Shown here: in pieces, positions 24,887-56,304 of the stretch
How the letters are laid out: every line of letters begins with the position of its first letter
Numbering within the stretch: the stretch's first letter is position 1
DNA from: Nitrospiraceae bacterium
GTDB taxonomy: Bacteria; Nitrospirota; Thermodesulfovibrionia; Thermodesulfovibrionales; UBA1546
Length of the DNA: 61,396 nt
Direction of reading: 5' to 3'
NCBI GenBank assembly: GCA_021373015.1
Contig: JAJFTJ010000014.1
Coordinates: 74,927-136,322, forward strand
Notes under the pieces: generated by a model
Seen by the model: the letters and a program-made list of their open reading frames with translations, nothing else
Database searches by the model: none
What the model was told of the DNA's origin: nothing
Program-made: the position numbers and the translations under genes

Positions 24887-24962
24887 GGGCAGTTAGCTCA
24901 GTCGGTAGAGCAGAGGCCTGAAAAGCCTCGTGTCCGCAGTTCGATTCTGCGACTGCCCACCA
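24887..24962 (+). tRNA. tRNA-Phe (GAA)
   Basis: 76 bases with the CCA encoded. The acceptor GGGCAGT pairs with ACTGCCC. The D arm has AGCTCAGTCGGTAGAGC. The anticodon stem GAGGC/GCCTC encloses loop CTGAAAA with anticodon GAA. The T arm is CGCAG TTCGATT CTGCG. All stems pair fully. It has its own promoter upstream. The 92 bases to the next gene (end of the GGDEF gene at 25055) show no clear feature. Confidence 0.97.
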
Positions 24963-25054: not shown

Positions 25055-26284
25055 TTAATCGGCATTTTCAGGAGAAGAAAATTGAAAAGGTTCGTATTTT
25101 GTTATGCGGTTCCTGCCTGCTTTTTTGGATTCATAAAGAGCCTGATCAGCCTTTGTAATTATTGCTTCTATTGTTTTGCCGTCAGACGGAAACTCCGCAA
25201 TCCCGCCGCTTATCGATATGAAACCTGAAAACTGTTTTTCTCTATGGGCAAAAGGGTATGATTCAATTATTTTTCTGAGTTTTTCCGCATATAACATAGC
25301 GTTTATTTTTCCTGTATTTGAGAGCAGAGCAATGAATTCTTCACCGCCATAGCGCGCAACAATATCAGTTCCCCGGGTATTTTCTTTTAAGATAACTCCA
25401 AGCTGCTTTAGCAGTTTATCTCCTTCGACATGACCATTTTGGTCGTTATAATTTTTGAAATAATCGATATCAAAAATAAGCACGGATAAAACTGAATTAT
25501 AGCTCAATGATTTTTGCGCGATTTCAGCGGCTCTTTCCAAAAAGAAATGTTTGTTATAAAGACCTGTCAGCGAATCTGTTATGGCCTCTTTCTTTGCGGT
25601 TGTCAGATAATCGCAGTTTTGCAATGCAACAGCAGCAAGATCTGATATCATTGCAAGAAAACGTTTTTCGTTCCCTGTCTGGGATGCAGCCTTAATTTTA
25701 CCAATGCCAAGCACGCCTATAACACCAAGAAGAGTATTTTTATAGATTATCGGTATGCTTAGTTCCAGGTTTTCATCAGGGAGGGGCTTGTGAATCTGTT
25801 CTTTTGATGTTATCAACTTGCTTGCTGCTGCTTCTCCGATTACTCCTTCGCCTAAATCTACGGATATGCTTTTTTTCTTGTTAGATCCAAAAGCAGCAAC
25901 AAGGTCGAGCTTCTCGCTCGATTTATTGAATATATAGAGTTCCACAGCATCGGTATCAACAAGATTTTTTGTTAGTCTGAGTATTGAAGAAATTATTTCG
26001 TCAAAAGTAAGATTTGAATTTAAATGTTTTACAGCCTCGGGAAGTTTAATAAGAAAATCCAGATATTTTTCTGCTTTCTGCTTTAGGTCCTCGACTTCTC
26101 TCTGGAGACCTTTTCTGTGGTGTTCAGAAAGCATTAGCTCGCGCTGCATCCGTTTTTGGTCTGAAGCAAAACTTTCTTTTTCAATAAAAGAACCGATTTT
26201 TTTACCTGAGAAAAAAGCTATCGAAGCGATTACTGCTAAGATTCCGATGAAAACAAGTAAAAGTTCAAAGTCCAGTTCGTTCAT
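25055..26284 (-). CDS. membrane-anchored GAF-GGDEF diguanylate cyclase
   Basis: 409 residues. One N-terminal membrane helix (about 8-25) is followed by a coiled coil (about 40-75), a GAF domain (about 85-230, VDTDAVELYIFNKSSEKLDL) and a GGDEF domain (about 240-400). The active-site signature is RYGGEEF, with an inhibitory RxxD (RGTD) five residues before it, so it should make c-di-GMP under product inhibition. AGGGG lies 6 bases before ATG 26284 and a good promoter lies further upstream. It is divergent from the DsbC-like gene and close to another cyclase and an HD-GYP phosphodiesterase. Confidence 0.93.
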   Translation of the reverse strand: MNELDFELLLVFIGILAVIASIAFFSGKKIGSFIEKESFASDQKRMQRELMLSEHHRKGLQREVEDLKQKAEKYLDFLIKLPEAVKHLNSNLTFDEIISSILRLTKNLVDTDAVELYIFNKSSEKLDLVAAFGSNKKKSISVDLGEGVIGEAAASKLITSKEQIHKPLPDENLELSIPIIYKNTLLGVIGVLGIGKIKAASQTGNEKRFLAMISDLAAVALQNCDYLTTAKKEAITDSLTGLYNKHFFLERAAEIAQKSLSYNSVLSVLIFDIDYFKNYNDQNGHVEGDKLLKQLGVILKENTRGTDIVARYGGEEFIALLSNTGKINAMLYAEKLRKIIESYPFAHREKQFSGFISISGGIAEFPSDGKTIEAIITKADQALYESKKAGRNRITKYEPFQFSSPENAD

Positions 26285-27205: not shown

Positions 27206-29206
27206 ATGTTTGGAGCCGATAAGCTAGATTATCTCCAAAATTTATTTCTTTCAGCGCGCTGGAAGGGGCGCTTCAAAACACTTACCGATACTACTGGTTT
27301 TAATCTCAGCATCATGTCAGAACAAGGCACATCTATTTTTTCCACAGAAGGTCATCCCTCAATATGCAGGGCATTGCTTGCAAATGATGGTTTTAGAACA
27401 AAATGTAATTCTTACTGCAACAGCAATGTATCTGAGGCAATCAGCAAAAACAGCAGTATAATTTATAAGTGTTATGCAGGAGTGATGAGTTTTGTTCTTC
27501 CTCTGGAATATATGCAGGAGCGGGCAGTAATTCTCGGTCAGGGATCATTTTCTGATTACGAAGATTTTAAGGAATTTACAAAGCAACTCTCATCTTTTGT
27601 CAATGAAATGCCGATAGTTGGTCCTATAAAATTCACCAGCTCCGAGCATGCTACAAATGTATGCAAACTGGTGGACAGCTCTATAAACCATCTTCTTAAG
27701 AGCAGCCAGGAAACTATTATTTTGAAAAAAAAGATAGATGTTCTAAAAGAAGTCCTTGGGATGTGGGACACGGGCTTAAAAGATAAATCAGAAACAATTT
27801 TTAAACACATAGTAACCAATCTTTTTTCTCTGCTTGACTTAGAGCATGCTACTATTTTCCTCCTCGATTATGAAAGGGGAGAATTTATTAGCCAGCATAC
27901 TATTAAAAAAGATAAAAAAACAGAGATTTTCCATATAAAAAGCAATGATATTATAGTTCAAGAATTCAAAAGAGGTAAGACACATATTTCCTCAACAGAA
28001 GCTTCAATCGCTGCAAGAATACATTTCCTTAAAGGAATAAAAACATACTATTTTTTTCCGATAACTATAGGTCACAGGCTCGAAGCAATTCTTGGAATTT
28101 TTGATTTGCATTTGAAAGAGAGCGACATTAACATTATAACCGGCTTTTGCAGACAGGCCGCGCTGCGGATAGAAAATCACAAATTGCGAGGCGAGCTTAA
28201 CAGCAAGCTTGCGAAATTCACCAGTATTTCAACTGCAAAAAAAGATATAGAATTAGTTCTTAGTTATGAAAAACTTCTGGAAATCCTGCTGGATAAATCA
28301 GCAGAACTTCTTAAGGCAGAGCAGGGATCATTAATGCTGGTAGAGCGTGAGACCGAAAATCTTTTGTTAATATCAAATAAAGGTTTTAAAAATGGAATTC
28401 CAGTGCAGCACAGTATTCCAAAGGGAAAGGGGATAGCAGGAAGAGTTGCTCAGTACGGGGAGCCTTTTCTTGTAAGAGATCTTGAGAATGACCCGCGCAT
28501 AATGCAAAAAAACAGAGACAATTACAAAACAAAATCATTCATAAGCGTGCCTATTAAAGTAGGCAATCGCATAATCGGCGTGCTTAATCTTTCTGACAAG
28601 ACAACAGGTGAAGTGTTTAATGAAGAAGATCTTGAATTAATACAGTCTTTCACATCTCATGCTGCTATTGTTATTGAACGGAATGTTTTCTACAAGCAGA
28701 CAGAGGAGCTCAAGACACTTGCGATAACAGATTCTCTGACAGGACTGTTAAATCGCAGATATCTGGATGAAAGACTTGAAGAAGAACTATCACGCGCCAA
28801 TAGATACAAACGGCCGTTAAGCATATTGCTATTGGATATTGACGGCTTTAAAGATTATAATGATAAACTTGGACATTATATTGGCGATATGGTACTTAAG
28901 GGTATTTCGGATATACTCTGCAACAATGTAAGAACGATGGATATCGTAGCCAGATATGGGGGCGATGAATTTGTTGTAATACTACCTGAGACAGACAGTG
29001 CGCTGGCGCTAACAATAGGAGAGAGAATAAGAAGTGATGTTGCAGAAACAAAAATAGAGCCGGAAAATTTATCGCTGACAGTAAGTATTGGGATCGCATC
29101 TTTCTCAGAAAATAATAATACTGCAGACCAGCTTCTTAAAAATGCAGATAAAGCTCTTTATCGTTCTAAAGGGAAAGGAGGGAATAGAGTAGAGTTGAGC
29201 TCATAA
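27206..29206 (+). CDS. PocR-GAF-GAF-GGDEF diguanylate cyclase
   Basis: 666 residues, soluble. Residues about 10-160 match the PocR sensory domain: several Cys (SICRALL, TKCNSYCNS, YKCYAG) may bind a metal or small hydrocarbon-type ligand. A first GAF-like region is at about 190-330. A canonical GAF domain is at about 350-490 (GIAGRVAQYGEPFLVRDLENDP). The C-terminal GGDEF domain has active-site RYGGDEF and the inhibitory RTMD five residues earlier. It should make c-di-GMP in response to a cytoplasmic ligand. AAGGG precedes ATG 27206. The next gene starts 4 bases after its stop, making it the head of a four-gene signalling operon. Confidence 0.93.
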   Translation: MFGADKLDYLQNLFLSARWKGRFKTLTDTTGFNLSIMSEQGTSIFSTEGHPSICRALLANDGFRTKCNSYCNSNVSEAISKNSSIIYKCYAGVMSFVLPLEYMQERAVILGQGSFSDYEDFKEFTKQLSSFVNEMPIVGPIKFTSSEHATNVCKLVDSSINHLLKSSQETIILKKKIDVLKEVLGMWDTGLKDKSETIFKHIVTNLFSLLDLEHATIFLLDYERGEFISQHTIKKDKKTEIFHIKSNDIIVQEFKRGKTHISSTEASIAARIHFLKGIKTYYFFPITIGHRLEAILGIFDLHLKESDINIITGFCRQAALRIENHKLRGELNSKLAKFTSISTAKKDIELVLSYEKLLEILLDKSAELLKAEQGSLMLVERETENLLLISNKGFKNGIPVQHSIPKGKGIAGRVAQYGEPFLVRDLENDPRIMQKNRDNYKTKSFISVPIKVGNRIIGVLNLSDKTTGEVFNEEDLELIQSFTSHAAIVIERNVFYKQTEELKTLAITDSLTGLLNRRYLDERLEEELSRANRYKRPLSILLLDIDGFKDYNDKLGHYIGDMVLKGISDILCNNVRTMDIVARYGGDEFVVILPETDSALALTIGERIRSDVAETKIEPENLSLTVSIGIASFSENNNTADQLLKNADKALYRSKGKGGNRVELSS

Positions 29207-29210
29207 CAGT

Positions 29211-30887
29211 ATGCCATTGAGGATACTTCAGGAAAAAGATTTTTTTGGCAGAGAAAACGAGCTGTCAGCCTTATACCGTAAAGCGCTTGATACTGAAAAA
29301 GGCAAGGCTCAGAGTATATGCCTTTCCGGATACAGCGGAACAGGCAAGACAGAGATACTAAAACAGCTTTTTAATTATTTGTTTTGGAAACAGGACAGAA
29401 TAGCTCCATTTTATTATGCGGTAAATAATGCACTCTTAGCAGTTTCAGATTTTTCACGCGATTATCTGATGCGTTTCATATGCCAGCGAATTGCCTTTGA
29501 AGACAAGGAATCAGAATTAATAAATATTGAAGGACTTTCGTTTGAAGGTCTTACGTCGGTTTTAGAAAGAAAAAAAGCAACTTGGGCAGTCGAGATTATT
29601 GACAGGTACAGCCAGTGTAAGGAGCCTGTTGATCTTCTCAGGGTAGCATTAGGAGCTCCTCTATATGCAGCTCTTGCAACAGGTGTTTCTGCTGTTGTTA
29701 TGCTCGATGAATTTCAGAGATTCAGAAACCTTCACATCGATGCTCATGCCGAACCAATGCTGGTGTCGCTATTTGAGCCTCAAATGTCTTTTGGAAAAAC
29801 ACTATACGTTGTTACAGGAAGACAGGCTGAGATACAAGAAATGCCTGTAATAAGCAGTCAATCCAGGATCAATGTGCGTCCGCTTATGTTAAGAGATACA
29901 CAGGCAATGTTTGCCTCGATTCTTTCAGAATATGAGCTAAGATCTGATTCCTTGCCGGGCAATCTTTTGAATCATCTTGGCGGAAATCCTTTTTACATAA
30001 AATGTGTTGCCAGAGAAGCAGGATTCAGCAAAAAATCCGGGAGCAAGGATTTATGGAAGGCGTACATAACTGAAATAACAAAAGGCAGTATCTGTCGTTA
30101 TTGGGAAGCTGTTTTGAAAAACTATTTTCCAGAACTAGATGACAGGAAAAGAGCGCTCGAAATAATAAACAAAATTTATCATACAGGAGAACAGCTTAAT
30201 TCTCTGCGTTTGGCAAAGGCCTTTTCTCTTGATAATAGGGAAATAGACACAATAATGAGACAGCTGTATCTCTCAGGATTTGTAAACGGGGAATTTGGCG
30301 TTCTCAAAGTACCAGATGACAGAGTTCTCATAGATTTCGTCGACTGCATCTACAAAAGAGAGATAACAGGGAAAACCTATAATGACATCGAAACACAATT
30401 ATTATTAAAAGCAATTGACGGAGAAGCAAAAAAATTATCCTATGAGATAACGATTCCCATGCAAAAAGAGGCAGAACTCGTTGCTGCCCAGTGCCTTGAG
30501 CAGATAGGAAAGAACCTGCTTTTGGATCAGGAACTCATAGGGCAGCTACAATTAGCCGTAATAGAGGCGTGCATCAATGCAATCGAACACAGTAAAGGAC
30601 AAGAGAAAAAGATATTTATTACTTTTGACATGTATGAACGTTATCTCGAGATGGGGATAGAAAGCTCTGGAAGAGATTTTATATCCCAAGAAACTGGAGA
30701 GCCATTCAGCGGCAAGCCGCCGACTGGAAAAACAGAAAGGGGGTGGGGAATAAAATTAATGAAGAATTTTGCAGATTCAGTGCGGTTTGAGAAAACTGAC
30801 AGAGGCACCAAAGTTGTGCTCGTAAAAAATCTTCCAAGCGGGATAAAAATCAATATCAATCAGGAGGCGGATAAATCAGGTGAATAA
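29211..30887 (+). CDS. AAA/STAND-like ATPase fused to an RsbW-type anti-sigma kinase domain
   Basis: 558 residues. The N-terminal part (about 10-300) is an ORC/STAND-like P-loop ATPase: GRENEL at 13-18, Walker A GYSGTGKT at 40-47, Walker B VVMLDEF around D166. A winged-helix-like region follows at about 300-390. The C-terminal part (about 405-550) is a HATPase_c_2 domain as in RsbW/SpoIIAB, with N box EACINAIEH near 450 and G box ERGWGIKLM. Such domains bind and phosphorylate STAS antagonists, and the next gene is one, overlapping by 8 bases. No sigma factor is adjacent. The ATPase may act as the input or a molecular switch for the kinase. The fusion is not one I recognise as standard. Confidence 0.85.
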   Translation: MPLRILQEKDFFGRENELSALYRKALDTEKGKAQSICLSGYSGTGKTEILKQLFNYLFWKQDRIAPFYYAVNNALLAVSDFSRDYLMRFICQRIAFEDKESELINIEGLSFEGLTSVLERKKATWAVEIIDRYSQCKEPVDLLRVALGAPLYAALATGVSAVVMLDEFQRFRNLHIDAHAEPMLVSLFEPQMSFGKTLYVVTGRQAEIQEMPVISSQSRINVRPLMLRDTQAMFASILSEYELRSDSLPGNLLNHLGGNPFYIKCVAREAGFSKKSGSKDLWKAYITEITKGSICRYWEAVLKNYFPELDDRKRALEIINKIYHTGEQLNSLRLAKAFSLDNREIDTIMRQLYLSGFVNGEFGVLKVPDDRVLIDFVDCIYKREITGKTYNDIETQLLLKAIDGEAKKLSYEITIPMQKEAELVAAQCLEQIGKNLLLDQELIGQLQLAVIEACINAIEHSKGQEKKIFITFDMYERYLEMGIESSGRDFISQETGEPFSGKPPTGKTERGWGIKLMKNFADSVRFEKTDRGTKVVLVKNLPSGIKININQEADKSGE

Positions 30888-31230
30888 TTTTTCAGTAGTT
30901 GTAAAAAACCTCAAAAACGCAGTGATTATTCTGCCAAAAGGCTATGTGAATGATCTTGGAGCCGAACGACTAGAAGACACATGTGATAGATATCTGGAGA
31001 AAGGAATTAACAGGATTATTATAAATTTTTCAGAAATGCAATTTATTAACAGTATTGGCGCATCAATATTTACAGGAATAATAAAAAAAACTTTGGATAA
31101 CAATATAAAGATTTGTTTTACCAATATGAAAAAAATACATAATGATGTTTTTCATATGCTTGGAATAACAAAACATGTAAAAGTGTTCAAGGATGAACAT
31201 GAAGCAATTAATTTTTTGAACGGAGACTAA
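30880..31230 (+). CDS. STAS-domain anti-sigma factor antagonist (RsbV/SpoIIAA type)
   Basis: 116 residues, a single STAS domain. The switch serine is Ser58 in FINSIGASIF, the usual position for phosphorylation by an RsbW-type kinase. The start is GTG 30880, with CAGGAGG upstream inside the end of the preceding kinase-domain gene; the 8-base overlap suggests coupled, stoichiometric synthesis. Unphosphorylated protein would sequester the kinase domain of its neighbour. The HD-GYP gene starts one base after its stop. Confidence 0.92.
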   Translation: MNNFSVVVKNLKNAVIILPKGYVNDLGAERLEDTCDRYLEKGINRIIINFSEMQFINSIGASIFTGIIKKTLDNNIKICFTNMKKIHNDVFHMLGITKHVKVFKDEHEAINFLNGD

Positions 31231-31231
31231 A

Positions 31232-32479
31232 GTGCTCGAAAAACTAGGACTACAAAGGCTTTTTTTCAACATATCATCTTTAGTTGATCTTAGTCAGGAG
31301 GTTACGTCATCCAAGGGGTTTGATGACAAAATGAAAAGCTCTCTCTATGTAGTGACAGGCATGTTTTCAGTGCCTGAGGCAGCGCTTCTGGTTTATAATG
31401 CGAATAAAAGCGATCTGGAACTGCATTCATCAAAAGGATTAAAAGAGGCAAAAAACGTTTTTTTAAAAATAAAACTAGGGCAGATAAAGAAATTTGCGAA
31501 GAATGAGGCAGTAAATTTAAACGGTTATTCTGGAAACGGATTTTATAAAGAGAATGAAAATAACTTTAAAAAACTTAAAACAAAAATATTCATACCTCTT
31601 TTCGCAAAAGGCGAATTTGTCGGAGCACTAAGCCTTGGCAAGAGACTTTCAAGAACAACATTTCTTAAGAGTGAAAAAACTGCTCTTAAGGTTGTTGTGA
31701 ACCAGATGGCAATAGCGCTGTATAATTTATCTCTTTTCAAGAAACTCACCGTCAAAGTGCAGGAAAACGAAAAAATGTATGAAAACATGCGCCTGATATA
31801 CCATGACACAATACAGGCATTTGCAGCTGCAATTGATGCAAAAGATCCATATACGAGAAATCACTCATACAGAGTCGCAACATATTCAGTTGCAGTGGCA
31901 AAAGAACTTAGATGGAAAGAAAGAGATGTGGAAGGGATATATATTGCTGGACTTCTTCATGACATTGGCAAAATAGTAATTGATAAGAAAGTAATAAACA
32001 AGGATCACAATCTTACTGAATTCGAAATAGAGGAGATTAAAAAACACCCTGGGTTTTCTTTTGATATTCTCTCAAAGATCAAACTGCCGTGGGAGGATGT
32101 GATATATTTTGTTAAACATCATCATGAAAGGATTGACGGCAACGGATATCCTGATCACCTGAATGGCGCAGGGCTGAATGATGGGATGAAAATATTGGCG
32201 CTTGCTGATGCGTTTGATGCAATGACAACTGACAGACCATATAGAAAAAAACTAACGCTTTTGGAGACACTGGAAGAAGTAAAAAATTGTCTTGGAACAC
32301 AGTTCGATAGAAAAATATCAAAGGTTTTTTTCAAGGTGCTCCAAAAAGAATTAAACGGACACGCAAAAGAGGCTCAAATTATTCCGCATCTTGATAAGAA
32401 CTTTGATCCAAAGGTCATTACAGCGCTTCTTGAAAGCCTTATTGAGCAGTTAAGAATGCCATTACCTGAAAAGTTATGA
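31232..32479 (+). CDS. GAF-HD-GYP c-di-GMP phosphodiesterase
   Basis: 415 residues. A GAF-like domain lies at about 20-170, a short coiled coil follows, then an HD-GYP domain at about 190-365. The metal and signature residues are present: NHSYRVA, GLLHDIGK, HHHERIDGNGYP and LALADAFDAMT. It should hydrolyse c-di-GMP, opposing the cyclase at the head of this operon. The start is GTG 31232, one base after the STAS stop. A small tail (about 370-415) is unassigned. Together with the kinase/STAS pair it suggests c-di-GMP turnover gated by partner switching. Confidence 0.93.
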   Translation: MLEKLGLQRLFFNISSLVDLSQEVTSSKGFDDKMKSSLYVVTGMFSVPEAALLVYNANKSDLELHSSKGLKEAKNVFLKIKLGQIKKFAKNEAVNLNGYSGNGFYKENENNFKKLKTKIFIPLFAKGEFVGALSLGKRLSRTTFLKSEKTALKVVVNQMAIALYNLSLFKKLTVKVQENEKMYENMRLIYHDTIQAFAAAIDAKDPYTRNHSYRVATYSVAVAKELRWKERDVEGIYIAGLLHDIGKIVIDKKVINKDHNLTEFEIEEIKKHPGFSFDILSKIKLPWEDVIYFVKHHHERIDGNGYPDHLNGAGLNDGMKILALADAFDAMTTDRPYRKKLTLLETLEEVKNCLGTQFDRKISKVFFKVLQKELNGHAKEAQIIPHLDKNFDPKVITALLESLIEQLRMPLPEKL

Positions 32480-32779: not shown

Positions 32780-32866
32780 TGGTGCCGGTGGGGAGAATCG
32801 AACTCCCACGGGGTTGCCCCCACCGGATTTTGAGTCCGGCGCGTCTGCCAGTTCCACCACACCGGC
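32780..32866 (-). tRNA. tRNA-Leu (CAA)
   Basis: 87 bases including encoded CCA. The acceptor GCCGGTG pairs with CACCGGC. The anticodon stem CCGGA/TCCGG encloses loop CTCAAAA with anticodon CAA. The long variable arm TGGGGGCAACCCCG marks a class II tRNA. The T arm reads GGGAG TTCGATT CTCCC. It lies 10 bases downstream of accA on the same strand and may be cotranscribed with it. Confidence 0.96.
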
Positions 32867-32876
32867 TGTTTATTAA

Positions 32877-33851
32877 CTAAGAATTTTCAAAAAAACCAAT
32901 TCTGCGAATGCGTTTATAACGGTCTTCAATTAAATCTTCTGCGGATTTTGCGCTTAATTCTCCGATTGAATTAATGATTATATCTGATATATTTTTCGCG
33001 ACTATAGCAGGGTCTTTATGCGCTCCGCCAAGAGGCTCGGGAATTATACTGTCAATGATATTAAATTTAAGCAGATCCTGAGCAGTAAGTTTTAAGGCAT
33101 CAGCAGCTTTTGAATACGACTCTGTTTTCAGATCTCCGTTCTTTTTCCACAATATCGCTGCACAGCCCTCAGGGGATATAACAGAATATACAGAGTGTTC
33201 CAGCATATAAAGCCTGTCAGCGACTCCAAGCGCTATTGCTCCGCCGCTTCCTCCTTCGCCGATTACGAACGAAACAACAGGGGTCTTCAGCTTTGACATT
33301 TCCATTAAATTAGTTGCAATTGCCTCAGACTGTCCTCTTTCTTCAGCGCCAATACCGGGATAAGCGCCCGGAGTATCAATCAGCGTTATAACAGGTTTTT
33401 TGAATCTTTCGGCAAGCTGCATAAGGCGCAGGGCTTTTCTGTATCCTTCAGGATTGGGCTGTCCGAAATTTCTGTAGATTCTTTCCTTTGTTGTGCCCCT
33501 TCCTTTTTGATGGCCGATAATCATTACAGACATCCCTTTTATTTTTGCAATTCCACCGACTATTGCTGGATCATCATAAAATCTTTTATCACCATGAAGC
33601 TCTACAAAGTCTTCGCAGAAAGAATTTATATAGTCAAAAGTGTAGGGGCGGTCAGGATGTCTTGCAATAAGGGTTTTCTGCCATGGAGTGAGCCTTGAAA
33701 AAATTTCTGTGCGCATCTCCTCTGCTTTTTGTTCAAGCTTTCTTACAGCAGAGGCTATATTGATATCTTTTTTTGCAGATAGATGCCTGAGCTCTTCTAT
33801 CTTCAGTTCAAGCTCTTCTATTGGTTTTTCAAATTCTAGATAGTATTTCAT
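32877..33851 (-). CDS. accA: acetyl-CoA carboxylase carboxyltransferase subunit alpha
   Basis: 324 residues, the usual AccA length. An N-terminal coiled coil (about 1-50: [20 protein letters not shown]) precedes the crotonase-fold carboxyltransferase domain with [19 protein letters not shown] and [12 protein letters not shown]. It transfers carboxyl from biotin to acetyl-CoA with AccD, the first step of fatty-acid synthesis. accD, accB and accC are not in the window. It follows dnaE by 47 bases, a pairing also seen in E. coli. No clear Shine-Dalgarno sequence precedes ATG 33851. Confidence 0.97.
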
Positions 33852-52922: not shown

Positions 52923-54608
52923 ATGAGGTCAGATAAACTTCTTGAAGACATAAAGTCTCGACTGGACATAATAGATGTCATAGGAGATTATATTGAGCTT
53001 AAGAAGTCAGGACAGAACTATAAGGCAAATTGTCCCTTCCATTCAGAAAAAACTCCTTCATTCATGGCAAGCCCTGGCAAGCAGATATACCACTGTTTCG
53101 GCTGTAATGCAGGAGGTGATGTCATAGGATTTGTCATGCGCTACGAGAATATGACATTTCAGGAAGCTGTTAAAACGCTTGCCAAAAAAGCAGGGATACA
53201 ACTTTCCGAATACAAATTCGAGACAGGGCTCACAGAGAAAAAAGACAAATTGCATGAGATCCAGAATGAGGCACTCAGATATTTTCCGGAAAAACTTAAA
53301 AAATCCAAGACAGTTCTCTCTTATCTGGACAAGAGAGAGATCAACAAAGAAATGGTACAAAATTTCAGTCTTGGTTATGCGGATAAGGATTGGAAAACCT
53401 TGTATGAACATCTCAGAAAAAAGGAATATGAAGACGCACTGATTGCACAATCAGGTCTTGTTTTTAGCGGGGAAAAAGGTTTTTATGATGTGTTCAGAAA
53501 CCGGTTGATGTTCCCGATTTTTAATATAAATGCAGATGTAATAGCTTTTGGAGGAAGGGCAATTGATAATGATATGCCAAAATATCTCAACTCTCCCGAG
53601 ACAATGCTTTTTAAAAAAGGCGAAACTCTTTATGCACTTAATGTGGCAAAGGATGAGATCAGGAAAAAAGATTATGCAATTGTTGTGGAGGGATATATAG
53701 ATGTCATAATATGCCATCAGCATGGGTTCAGGAATGTTATTGCACCGCTTGGTACAGCCCTTACGTCAGGACATCTCCAGAAAATAGGAAGACTTACAAA
53801 AAAGATTGTTCTTGTTTTTGACAGTGACGCAGCAGGTATTGCTGCTGCAAAAAGATCTCTTAGTCTGCTATATGAGCATGGTTTTAAGTCAAAGATACTG
53901 CTCCTTCCAGAAGGAGACGACCCTGACAGCTTCCTTCGCAAAAAAGGAAGCGCTGCTTTTCAGACAGCACTTGCGAGGTCAAAATCCATGATTGATTTTA
54001 TTCTAGGGCTCAAAGGAGAAAAGACAGATAACATCAGAACTGCGATCAGCATAATAAACAATGTCAAAGACATGATTCTAAAGGAAGAACTTTTAAAGGA
54101 ACTCTCAGAGAGATCAGGGGTCAGCGAGACGGCTATAAGAAAAGAAACCAATAAAGATTCGCAAGCTCTAAAAAAATATGAACGAGGCAGACAGGGAAAG
54201 AATGAGGCTAAGACATCAGATCTTTTATATAGCGAAGATGTATTGCTCCTGAGCGCTATTATTGCTTTTCAGGATAAGGCCTCGTATATCTTCGAAAACA
54301 TAGATATAGACGAGATTGAAAATACAACGGTAAAAGAAATTTTTAAAAAAATCAAGCCTTTAACCGATAAATTAGATATGAATTCAATATTAGCTGGGCT
54401 GGAGGATGAGGAGAAAGCAATTGTAACACGATTATCTTTAAGCCCGGGTTTTGACCTTGAGAACGTGGACATAAATATCAGGGACTGTTTTAAGAAGATG
54501 GCAAACTCGAAGCTGGATGAGAAGATCCAAAAAGCAAAAACAGCAGGTGATTTACAGCTCTTAAAATCATTGCTGGCAGAAAAACACAAAAGATTGGGTC
54601 ATGACTAA
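52923..54608 (+). CDS. dnaG: DNA primase
   Basis: 561 residues. The CHC2 zinc-binding domain is at about 37-65 ([21 protein letters not shown]). The RNA polymerase domain has the TOPRIM acidic motifs [22 protein letters not shown] and [10 protein letters not shown]. The C-terminal helicase-binding region is short and diverged. It primes each Okazaki fragment. It overlaps the possible upstream start of rpoD. Together they form the macromolecular-synthesis operon, here without rpsU. Confidence 0.97.
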
Positions 54609-54624
54609 AACAAGGGAGGAGCAC

Positions 54625-56190
54625 ATGAGAGAGCAGCCCGAGTACTTTGGAAATGAAGAACAGGAGCTAGAAGGATTTGACTTGTTAAAAGGGATTGAAG
54701 ATGTTGAAAATGAATTCATTGAAGAAGTAAAAGGTCAGCCGGTTTCAGAGCCTGAGTATGATCCTTTAAAAATTTATCTCAAGGAGATGAGCAGCGTTCC
54801 GCTTCTTACAAAAGACGGAGAAGTAACAATAGCAAAGAGGATTAAAGAAGGCAGGAAAAAAATAGCAGAGATTGTTTTCATGCTTCCATTTACCATGACG
54901 AAACTGATAGAACTAGGCGAGCTGATTGAAAAGGGCGAAGCGCCTCTTGGAGAGATAATTCATAATGAAGAAACTGAATCAGAGGATAACCATAAAGAAA
55001 GAAAGCGGTTTTTTGCAATAACAGCGCAGCTTAAGGATTTATATGAAAAAAGAAAAAACTATCTAAGCAAACTCAAAGCAAAAGATACAAGTTCTAGCAG
55101 TAAAATAAACAAACAGCTTGAAGATAACATGAGCAGCATACTTCATAAAATTGATGATCTTAAACTAAGAGATGATGCGCTAATGATTTTTGCTGAAGAG
55201 ATCAGGGAAACAATAAATAAAGCAGAAGACATAGACAAGCATATGTTGTTTCTTAAGAAAAAGCTCAGACAACTGGGATATTACGCTGAAAAACTTCTGA
55301 AAAAGAAAAATACGAAAAAACTTAATAAAAATGCACAATCATTGCTTGATGATTATTTGTACTGCAGAACAGAGATATCAAAGAAGGAGAAGTTTGTGGG
55401 GCTTAAGTATGATGAGATGAAGAAGACCCTGAAGTTCCTAAATGAAGGTGAAGCGGGAGTGCTTGAATCAAAAAGAATGCTAATAGAGGCTAATCTCAGA
55501 CTAGTAATAAGCATAGCAAAAAAATATATGGGGAAAGGGCTGAGTTTTTCAGACCTGATACAAGAAGGCAACATCGGCCTGATGCGCGCATGTGACAAGT
55601 TTGAGTATGAGAGGGGCTATAAGTTCAGCACATACGCTACATGGTGGATAAGGCAGGCTGTAACAAGAGCACTTGCAGACCAGTCAAGAACAATCAGGAT
55701 ACCTGTGCACATGGTCGAAACAATGAACCGCATTACAAAGACAACAAGGGAACTTGTGCAGGAACTTGGCAGAGAACCTGTTCATGAAGAGATATCTTAC
55801 AGAGTGGGACTGTCTGTAGAAAAAGTAAGAAATATTCTAAAGATAGCAAAAGAACCCATCTCTCTGGAGACACCAATAGGAGAAGAGGAAAACAGCCACC
55901 TGAGCGATTTCATTGAGGATAAGGGTGCAGTTTCTCCTCTTGATTCCGCAATTCTTGATGACCTCAAAGATCAGATAGACAAGGCGCTCTTGACGCTTAA
56001 TCCAAAAGAGGAAAAGATTTTAAGAAAGAGATTTGGAATAGGAGAAGACACTCCTCAGACACTGGAAGAAGTTGGCAAGGAATTTGAGGTTACAAGAGAG
56101 AGAATAAGGCAGATAGAAGTAAGCGCAATACGAAAATTAAGACATCCCATGCGTCACAAGTGGCTCAGAGCCTTTATTCAAAGGGCTTGA
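54625..56190 (+). CDS. rpoD: primary sigma factor RpoD (sigma-70)
   Basis: 521 residues from ATG 54625, chosen for the strong AGGGAGGAG 5 bases upstream. ATG 54601 inside dnaG lacks a ribosome site. Region 1.2 begins [17 protein letters not shown] near residue 44, so the long acidic region 1.1 is nearly missing. A 180-residue non-conserved insert follows. Regions 2.1-2.4 include [28 protein letters not shown] and [16 protein letters not shown]. Regions 3 and 4 end in [20 protein letters not shown]. It directs housekeeping transcription, consistent with the TTGACA/TATAAT promoters seen here. Confidence 0.97.
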
Positions 56191-56228: not shown

Positions 56229-56304
56229 GGGCCCATAGCTCAGTTGGTAGAGCTACCGGCTCATAACCGGTTGGTCCCAGGTTCGAGTCCTGGTGGGCCC
56301 ACCA
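56229..56304 (+). tRNA. tRNA with anticodon CAU (elongator Met or Ile2)
   Basis: 76 bases with CCA encoded. GGGCCCA pairs with TGGGCCC in the acceptor. The anticodon stem ACCGG/CCGGT encloses loop CTCATAA. The T arm is CCCAG GTTCGAGT CTGGT-like with TTCGA present. The paired first position rules out the initiator tRNA. Elongator Met and lysidine-modified Ile(AUA) tRNAs cannot be separated with certainty. The GGTTGGTC downstream of the anticodon resembles Ile2. Confidence 0.9.

Follow-up and report, generated by a model that had tools for sequence, protein, structure and literature searches.

Partner switches that control diguanylate cyclases are already known (HsbRAD, SiaABCD and BgrR). In Pseudomonas aeruginosa, phosphorylated HsbA, a STAS protein, binds the cyclase HsbD; the kinase domain is part of HsbR, a response regulator that acts both as a phosphatase and as a kinase, and the targets of the system are FlgM and RpoS in addition to the cyclase (PMC5085249). 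SiaABCD from the same species is a linked partner switch that controls a cyclase without a sigma factor; SiaC belongs to DUF1987, and the module includes no phosphodiesterase (PMC8457831). In the part of the same source drawn on here, SiaC and BgrV are both described as acting on cyclases, BgrV according to phosphorylation, and BgrSTUWV-BgrR from Sinorhizobium meliloti appears as an RsbW/STAS-type switch on a cyclase with more components than the locus described below, that part mentioning neither an ATPase-kinase fusion nor an HD-GYP enzyme (PMC8457831). The RsbW-RsbV and SpoIIAB-SpoIIAA pairs of Bacillus share with this locus the kinase fold and catalytic residues, the STAS fold, and the position of the Ser acceptor, whereas RsbW and SpoIIAB are free-standing, have a sigma partner, and carry the canonical G1 Asp.

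Analysis of a 61,396-nucleotide stretch (the window) of a 1.69-Mb Nitrospirota genome revealed four closely packed genes (intergenic distances of 4 bases for DGC/KIN, -8 for KIN/STAS, and 1 for STAS/HD-GYP). The initial annotation had described them as a cassette joining c-di-GMP turnover to a partner-switching module, and the coordinates, the Pfam domains, and Ser58 were all confirmed. As in Hsb/Sia/Bgr-type systems, kinase and STAS genes are linked to a c-di-GMP enzyme; a dedicated PP2C/SpoIIE phosphatase was not found, no SpoIIE-type/PP2C gene being linked in the window cassette. The locus resembles Hsb in pairing a STAS protein that has a phosphorylatable Ser with a c-di-GMP enzyme, on which it would act, and in placing the kinase domain inside a larger regulator, but HsbR is a response regulator and Hsb has no ATPase fusion or HD-GYP enzyme (PMC5085249). 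Compared with Hsb, Sia, and Bgr, the cassette lacks a linked phosphatase, combines its kinase with an ATPase in one protein, and is associated with an HD-GYP enzyme. The ATPase-kinase fusion and the tie to HD-GYP appear to be the new elements; a word search of mainly open-access literature, with few subscription papers covered, found no report of an ATPase-RsbW fusion, of a STAS-HD-GYP switch, or of a partner switch built on either.

Features of the cassette and of its fusion protein KIN (positions in the window)
Feature	Position	Strand	Description and basis
Diguanylate cyclase (DGC), 666 aa	27206..29206	+	GGDEF domain with a PocR sensory domain and two GAF-like regions
KIN, 558 aa	29211..30887	+	N-terminal STAND/AAA-like P-loop ATPase and C-terminal RsbW/SpoIIAB-type kinase domain; Pfam, phylum profile, motifs
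KIN Walker A region, about residues 36-47	29316..29351	+	Motifs
KIN RsbW-type HATPase domain, about residues 406-544	30426..30842	+	Motifs; domain model best matches RsbW and SpoIIAB
STAS protein, 116 aa	30880..31230	+	GTG start; Pfam; predicted acceptor Ser58; 8-base overlap with KIN gene
HD-GYP phosphodiesterase, 415 aa	31232..32479	+	GTG start; N-terminal GAF-like region; Pfam, catalytic motifs

Both c-di-GMP enzymes have intact catalytic motifs. Pfam assigned PocR, GAF(s), and GGDEF to the DGC, the GGDEF domain of which contains an RxxD I-site; GGDEF and I-site are retained by the orthologues. The phosphodiesterase matched GAF weakly and HD_5 with 103 bits, and the window protein shows the HD and HHExxDGxGYP signatures of HD-GYP phosphodiesterases as HDIGK and HHERIDGNGYP; these catalytic motifs are intact in every orthologue scored. 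The STAS protein (53.7 bits) carries its predicted phospho-acceptor Ser58 within NSIG, which profile alignment places on the FMDSSG motif of SpoIIAA. Every aligned STAS sequence has Ser as the acceptor apart from those of four f25 loci, which have Thr, a pattern that a requirement for a hydroxyl would explain. With its STAS fold and conserved phosphorylatable Ser/Thr, the protein has the sequence features of an anti-sigma antagonist. One genome (G111) encodes a second close STAS relative (NSVG; L164:1495-1848), away from KIN and directly after a 320-aa ORF resembling a response regulator. Around the window cassette, a second GAF-GGDEF cyclase lies a short distance upstream (25055-26284, minus strand), and a tRNA-Leu gene (32780-32866) stands between the cassette and a 324-aa ORF at 32877; the window also contains genes for tRNA-Phe (24887-24962) and tRNA-Met (56229-56304). 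A DsbC-like gene found upstream in several f1 loci was considered as a cassette member and rejected, as it does not lie upstream at L010.

The KIN protein is a fusion, unlike the RsbW/SpoIIAB-type kinases of about 140-160 aa. It matched AAA_16 with 37.4 bits, over the cut-off of that family, and HATPase_c_2 with 59.8 bits. A P-loop, an acidic Walker B, a downstream GNP motif, and the AAA_16/ATPase_2 matches point to a STAND-type ATPase; this part was assigned from sequence profiles and motifs because the full-length structure model (pLDDT 47) was too poor for use. Modelled alone, the kinase domain reached a pLDDT of 73 and best matched RsbW, SpoIIAB, and related anti-sigma factors, and RsbW and SpoIIAB are its closest PDB structures both by sequence and by fold. 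The NCBIfam equivalog models for RsbW and SpoIIAB score KIN far under cut-off. The SiaB-SiaC structure matches the domain weakly. In SiaABCD, SiaA is a linked phosphatase and SiaB a free-standing kinase. The N box of KIN comprises E452, N456, and H460, and G2 reads RGWG (510-513); N456 and both G2 glycines are kept in all KIN members that retain STAS. In the G1 box, Ser485 occupies the position where Asp is usual, and Ser or Thr stands there throughout the family, so that D-x-G is not found. The G1 Asp of such kinases usually contacts adenine, and its replacement across the KIN family might leave ATP binding weak or absent. Within the phylum, some RsbW-like kinases that are free-standing proteins lack the G1 Asp as well, for example three of family f2 (L026, L031, and L033, with ESHG, QSRG, and QSYG).

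To study the distribution of the cassette, KIN and STAS profiles were searched against 396 genomes of the phylum, both at E <= 1e-20. KIN was matched in 44 genomes, one of which (G180) gave a weak match that by score and alignment is a different ATPase protein. The fusion that the initial annotation had found unusual is thus a conserved family. STAS was matched in 25 genomes, all of them among the 44 with KIN, and in none of the other 352. It is adjacent to KIN in every case, usually with overlapping genes, and every KIN that has STAS has an intact kinase domain. In the STAS-less genomes among the 44, a search at E <= 0.001 gave only weaker matches, in G278 and G307 off the KIN contig, or in G180. 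HD-GYP follows STAS in 23 of the 24 assessable loci. The complete order DGC-KIN-STAS-HD-GYP characterizes most of family f1, f16, f18, and six of the seven f25 loci; this recurrence across the phylum indicates that the cassette is not a chance arrangement. A pattern scan of genome contigs revealed six loci (five titled Nitrospirae, one Nitrospinota), and a scan of plasmids gave only two short partial matches.

Other loci depart from the complete order. At 11 loci (families f8, f12, and f13), KIN-STAS occurs without an adjacent DGC, although in two of them the contig ends nearby, toward the DGC or HD-GYP position; the 11 include G055, which also has no HD-GYP, and G231, where the contig stops before the HD-GYP position. 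At 15 loci (families f15 and f21), DGC-KIN occurs alone, without STAS or HD-GYP; a sixteenth (G170) is interrupted where its contig stops. The KIN of G219 is truncated by the end of its own contig. Most f15 DGC-KIN loci have conserved housekeeping surroundings, with genes resembling fumarase, alanine racemase, and hisS. In f1, the adjacent DGC is missing from L011, which retains the orthologue of the second upstream cyclase. The DGC is shortened to 113 aa at L007:1567-1908 and to 508 aa at L008:4473-5999, apparently through internal deletions, which may be genuine or may reflect collapse of GAF repeats in the assembly.

Loss of STAS coincides with decay of the kinase domain. In the f15/f21 KIN proteins, Asn and His have disappeared from the N box, together with the greater part of G1, the lid, and G2, while Walker A/B is kept. 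In family f25, the KIN of G097 carries H460Y and G511R and likewise retains Walker A/B; this genome, including the contig sequence that follows KIN, has no STAS of the cassette family, a case that lies close to a contig edge. On a tree of the KIN ATPase part, two changes are required for the presence of STAS and two for the integrity of the kinase, and both times they coincide. A sign test on the two independent losses (2/2 in agreement, p = 0.5) cannot reach significance with only two events, so this is a clear pattern and not a statistical test. The fused kinase, which had been proposed as the partner of this STAS protein, thus behaves as an exclusive pair with it by co-occurrence and kinase integrity, and from this co-occurrence and co-decay the two are very probably a cognate kinase-substrate pair. 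The further proposal that phosphorylation of STAS gates both c-di-GMP enzymes is supported in part. The STAS-HD-GYP linkage is nearly invariant, and control of the HD-GYP enzyme by STAS is the most likely reading of it. Gating of the cyclase through STAS is unsupported, because STAS and a usable kinase pocket are both missing at 15 DGC-KIN loci, and the DGC is missing at 11 KIN-STAS loci. Since the DGC accompanies KIN with or without STAS, the cyclase tracks the fusion protein and the phosphodiesterase tracks STAS; within KIN, the retained motifs make the ATPase part the more likely object of this association.

The simplest model places STAS and HD-GYP on one axis, the ATPase and the DGC on another, and KIN as the hub between them. 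The STAND/AAA-like ATPase would act as a nucleotide-dependent switch coupled to the adjoining PocR-GAF-GGDEF cyclase, and the RsbW-type domain would phosphorylate STAS on Ser58. Depending on its phosphorylation state, STAS would stay with KIN or engage the phosphodiesterase, probably through the GAF-containing N-terminal half of that enzyme. Breakdown of c-di-GMP would thereby be kept in step with its synthesis, the direction of each effect being our inference. For such a sigma-free partner switch, we consider the chances about even.

The main rival is a classical anti-sigma switch with its target elsewhere, in which KIN would sequester an unlinked sigma factor (FliA/WhiG-like or RpoD-like), STAS would free it, and the c-di-GMP enzymes would be input sensors or co-transcribed passengers. 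The nearest relatives of the kinase domain, RsbW and SpoIIAB, are both anti-sigma factors, and HsbA/HsbR act on sigma factors and a cyclase alike. Three sigma-70 proteins are encoded in the host genome, a FliA/WhiG-like one of 247 aa and two that are RpoD-like. The latter form an RpoD-like pair in a 1.69-Mb genome, one member lying in the window (54601-56190) right after a 561-aa ORF and the other, of 471 aa, at G000:C19 (L069). Against this reading stand the HD-GYP linkage in 23 of 24 loci, the fact that no SigB/SigF-type sigma was recognised in the host genome, and the fact that no linked sigma gene was recognised in the cassettes examined, which bears out the absence of a sigma factor reported in the initial annotation. 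We regard an unlinked sigma target as rather unlikely.

Alternatively, the c-di-GMP enzymes could be inputs, the ligand or c-di-GMP state sensed by PocR, GAF, or HD-GYP setting KIN activity and the KIN-STAS output being directed at an unlinked target. Sensory domains on both enzymes, and a DGC that remains beside KIN even with the kinase pocket gone, are consistent with this, but gene order points to no unlinked target, and in known cyclase-linked switches the STAS proteins act on the enzyme; we judge the arrangement unlikely. It is improbable that the HATPase domain is a pseudokinase merely binding STAS, with control exerted by the nucleotide state of the ATPase part and no STAS phosphorylation: every intact KIN member has Ser/Thr where the G1 Asp would stand, but the catalytic N-box Glu and Asn are conserved, the acceptor Ser is replaced only by Thr, and the sharing of the G1 change by some other RsbW-like kinases of the phylum weakens the argument.

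In the host, KIN is the only protein over the HATPase_c_2 cut-off, and the cassette STAS is the sole STAS protein. The single SpoIIE match is located elsewhere in the genome, and its motifs read as those of a Stp1/PrpC-type PP2C. Ten GGDEF domains, about a dozen HD-GYP domains, and seven PilZ matches form a general c-di-GMP network, and with so many GGDEF and HD-GYP domains a private c-di-GMP pool is probably absent.

The sigma-free switch with KIN as hub might, as a tentative suggestion, be the first partner switch in which STAS controls a c-di-GMP phosphodiesterase while a STAND-type ATPase in the same polypeptide as the kinase separately controls a cyclase, one protein setting both arms. 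Evolution has already split the two halves, KIN-STAS-HD-GYP occurring without the cyclase and DGC-KIN with a decayed kinase, so that each link can be tested on its own. If the model is true, a single hub protein would govern both synthesis and breakdown of c-di-GMP via two different domains.
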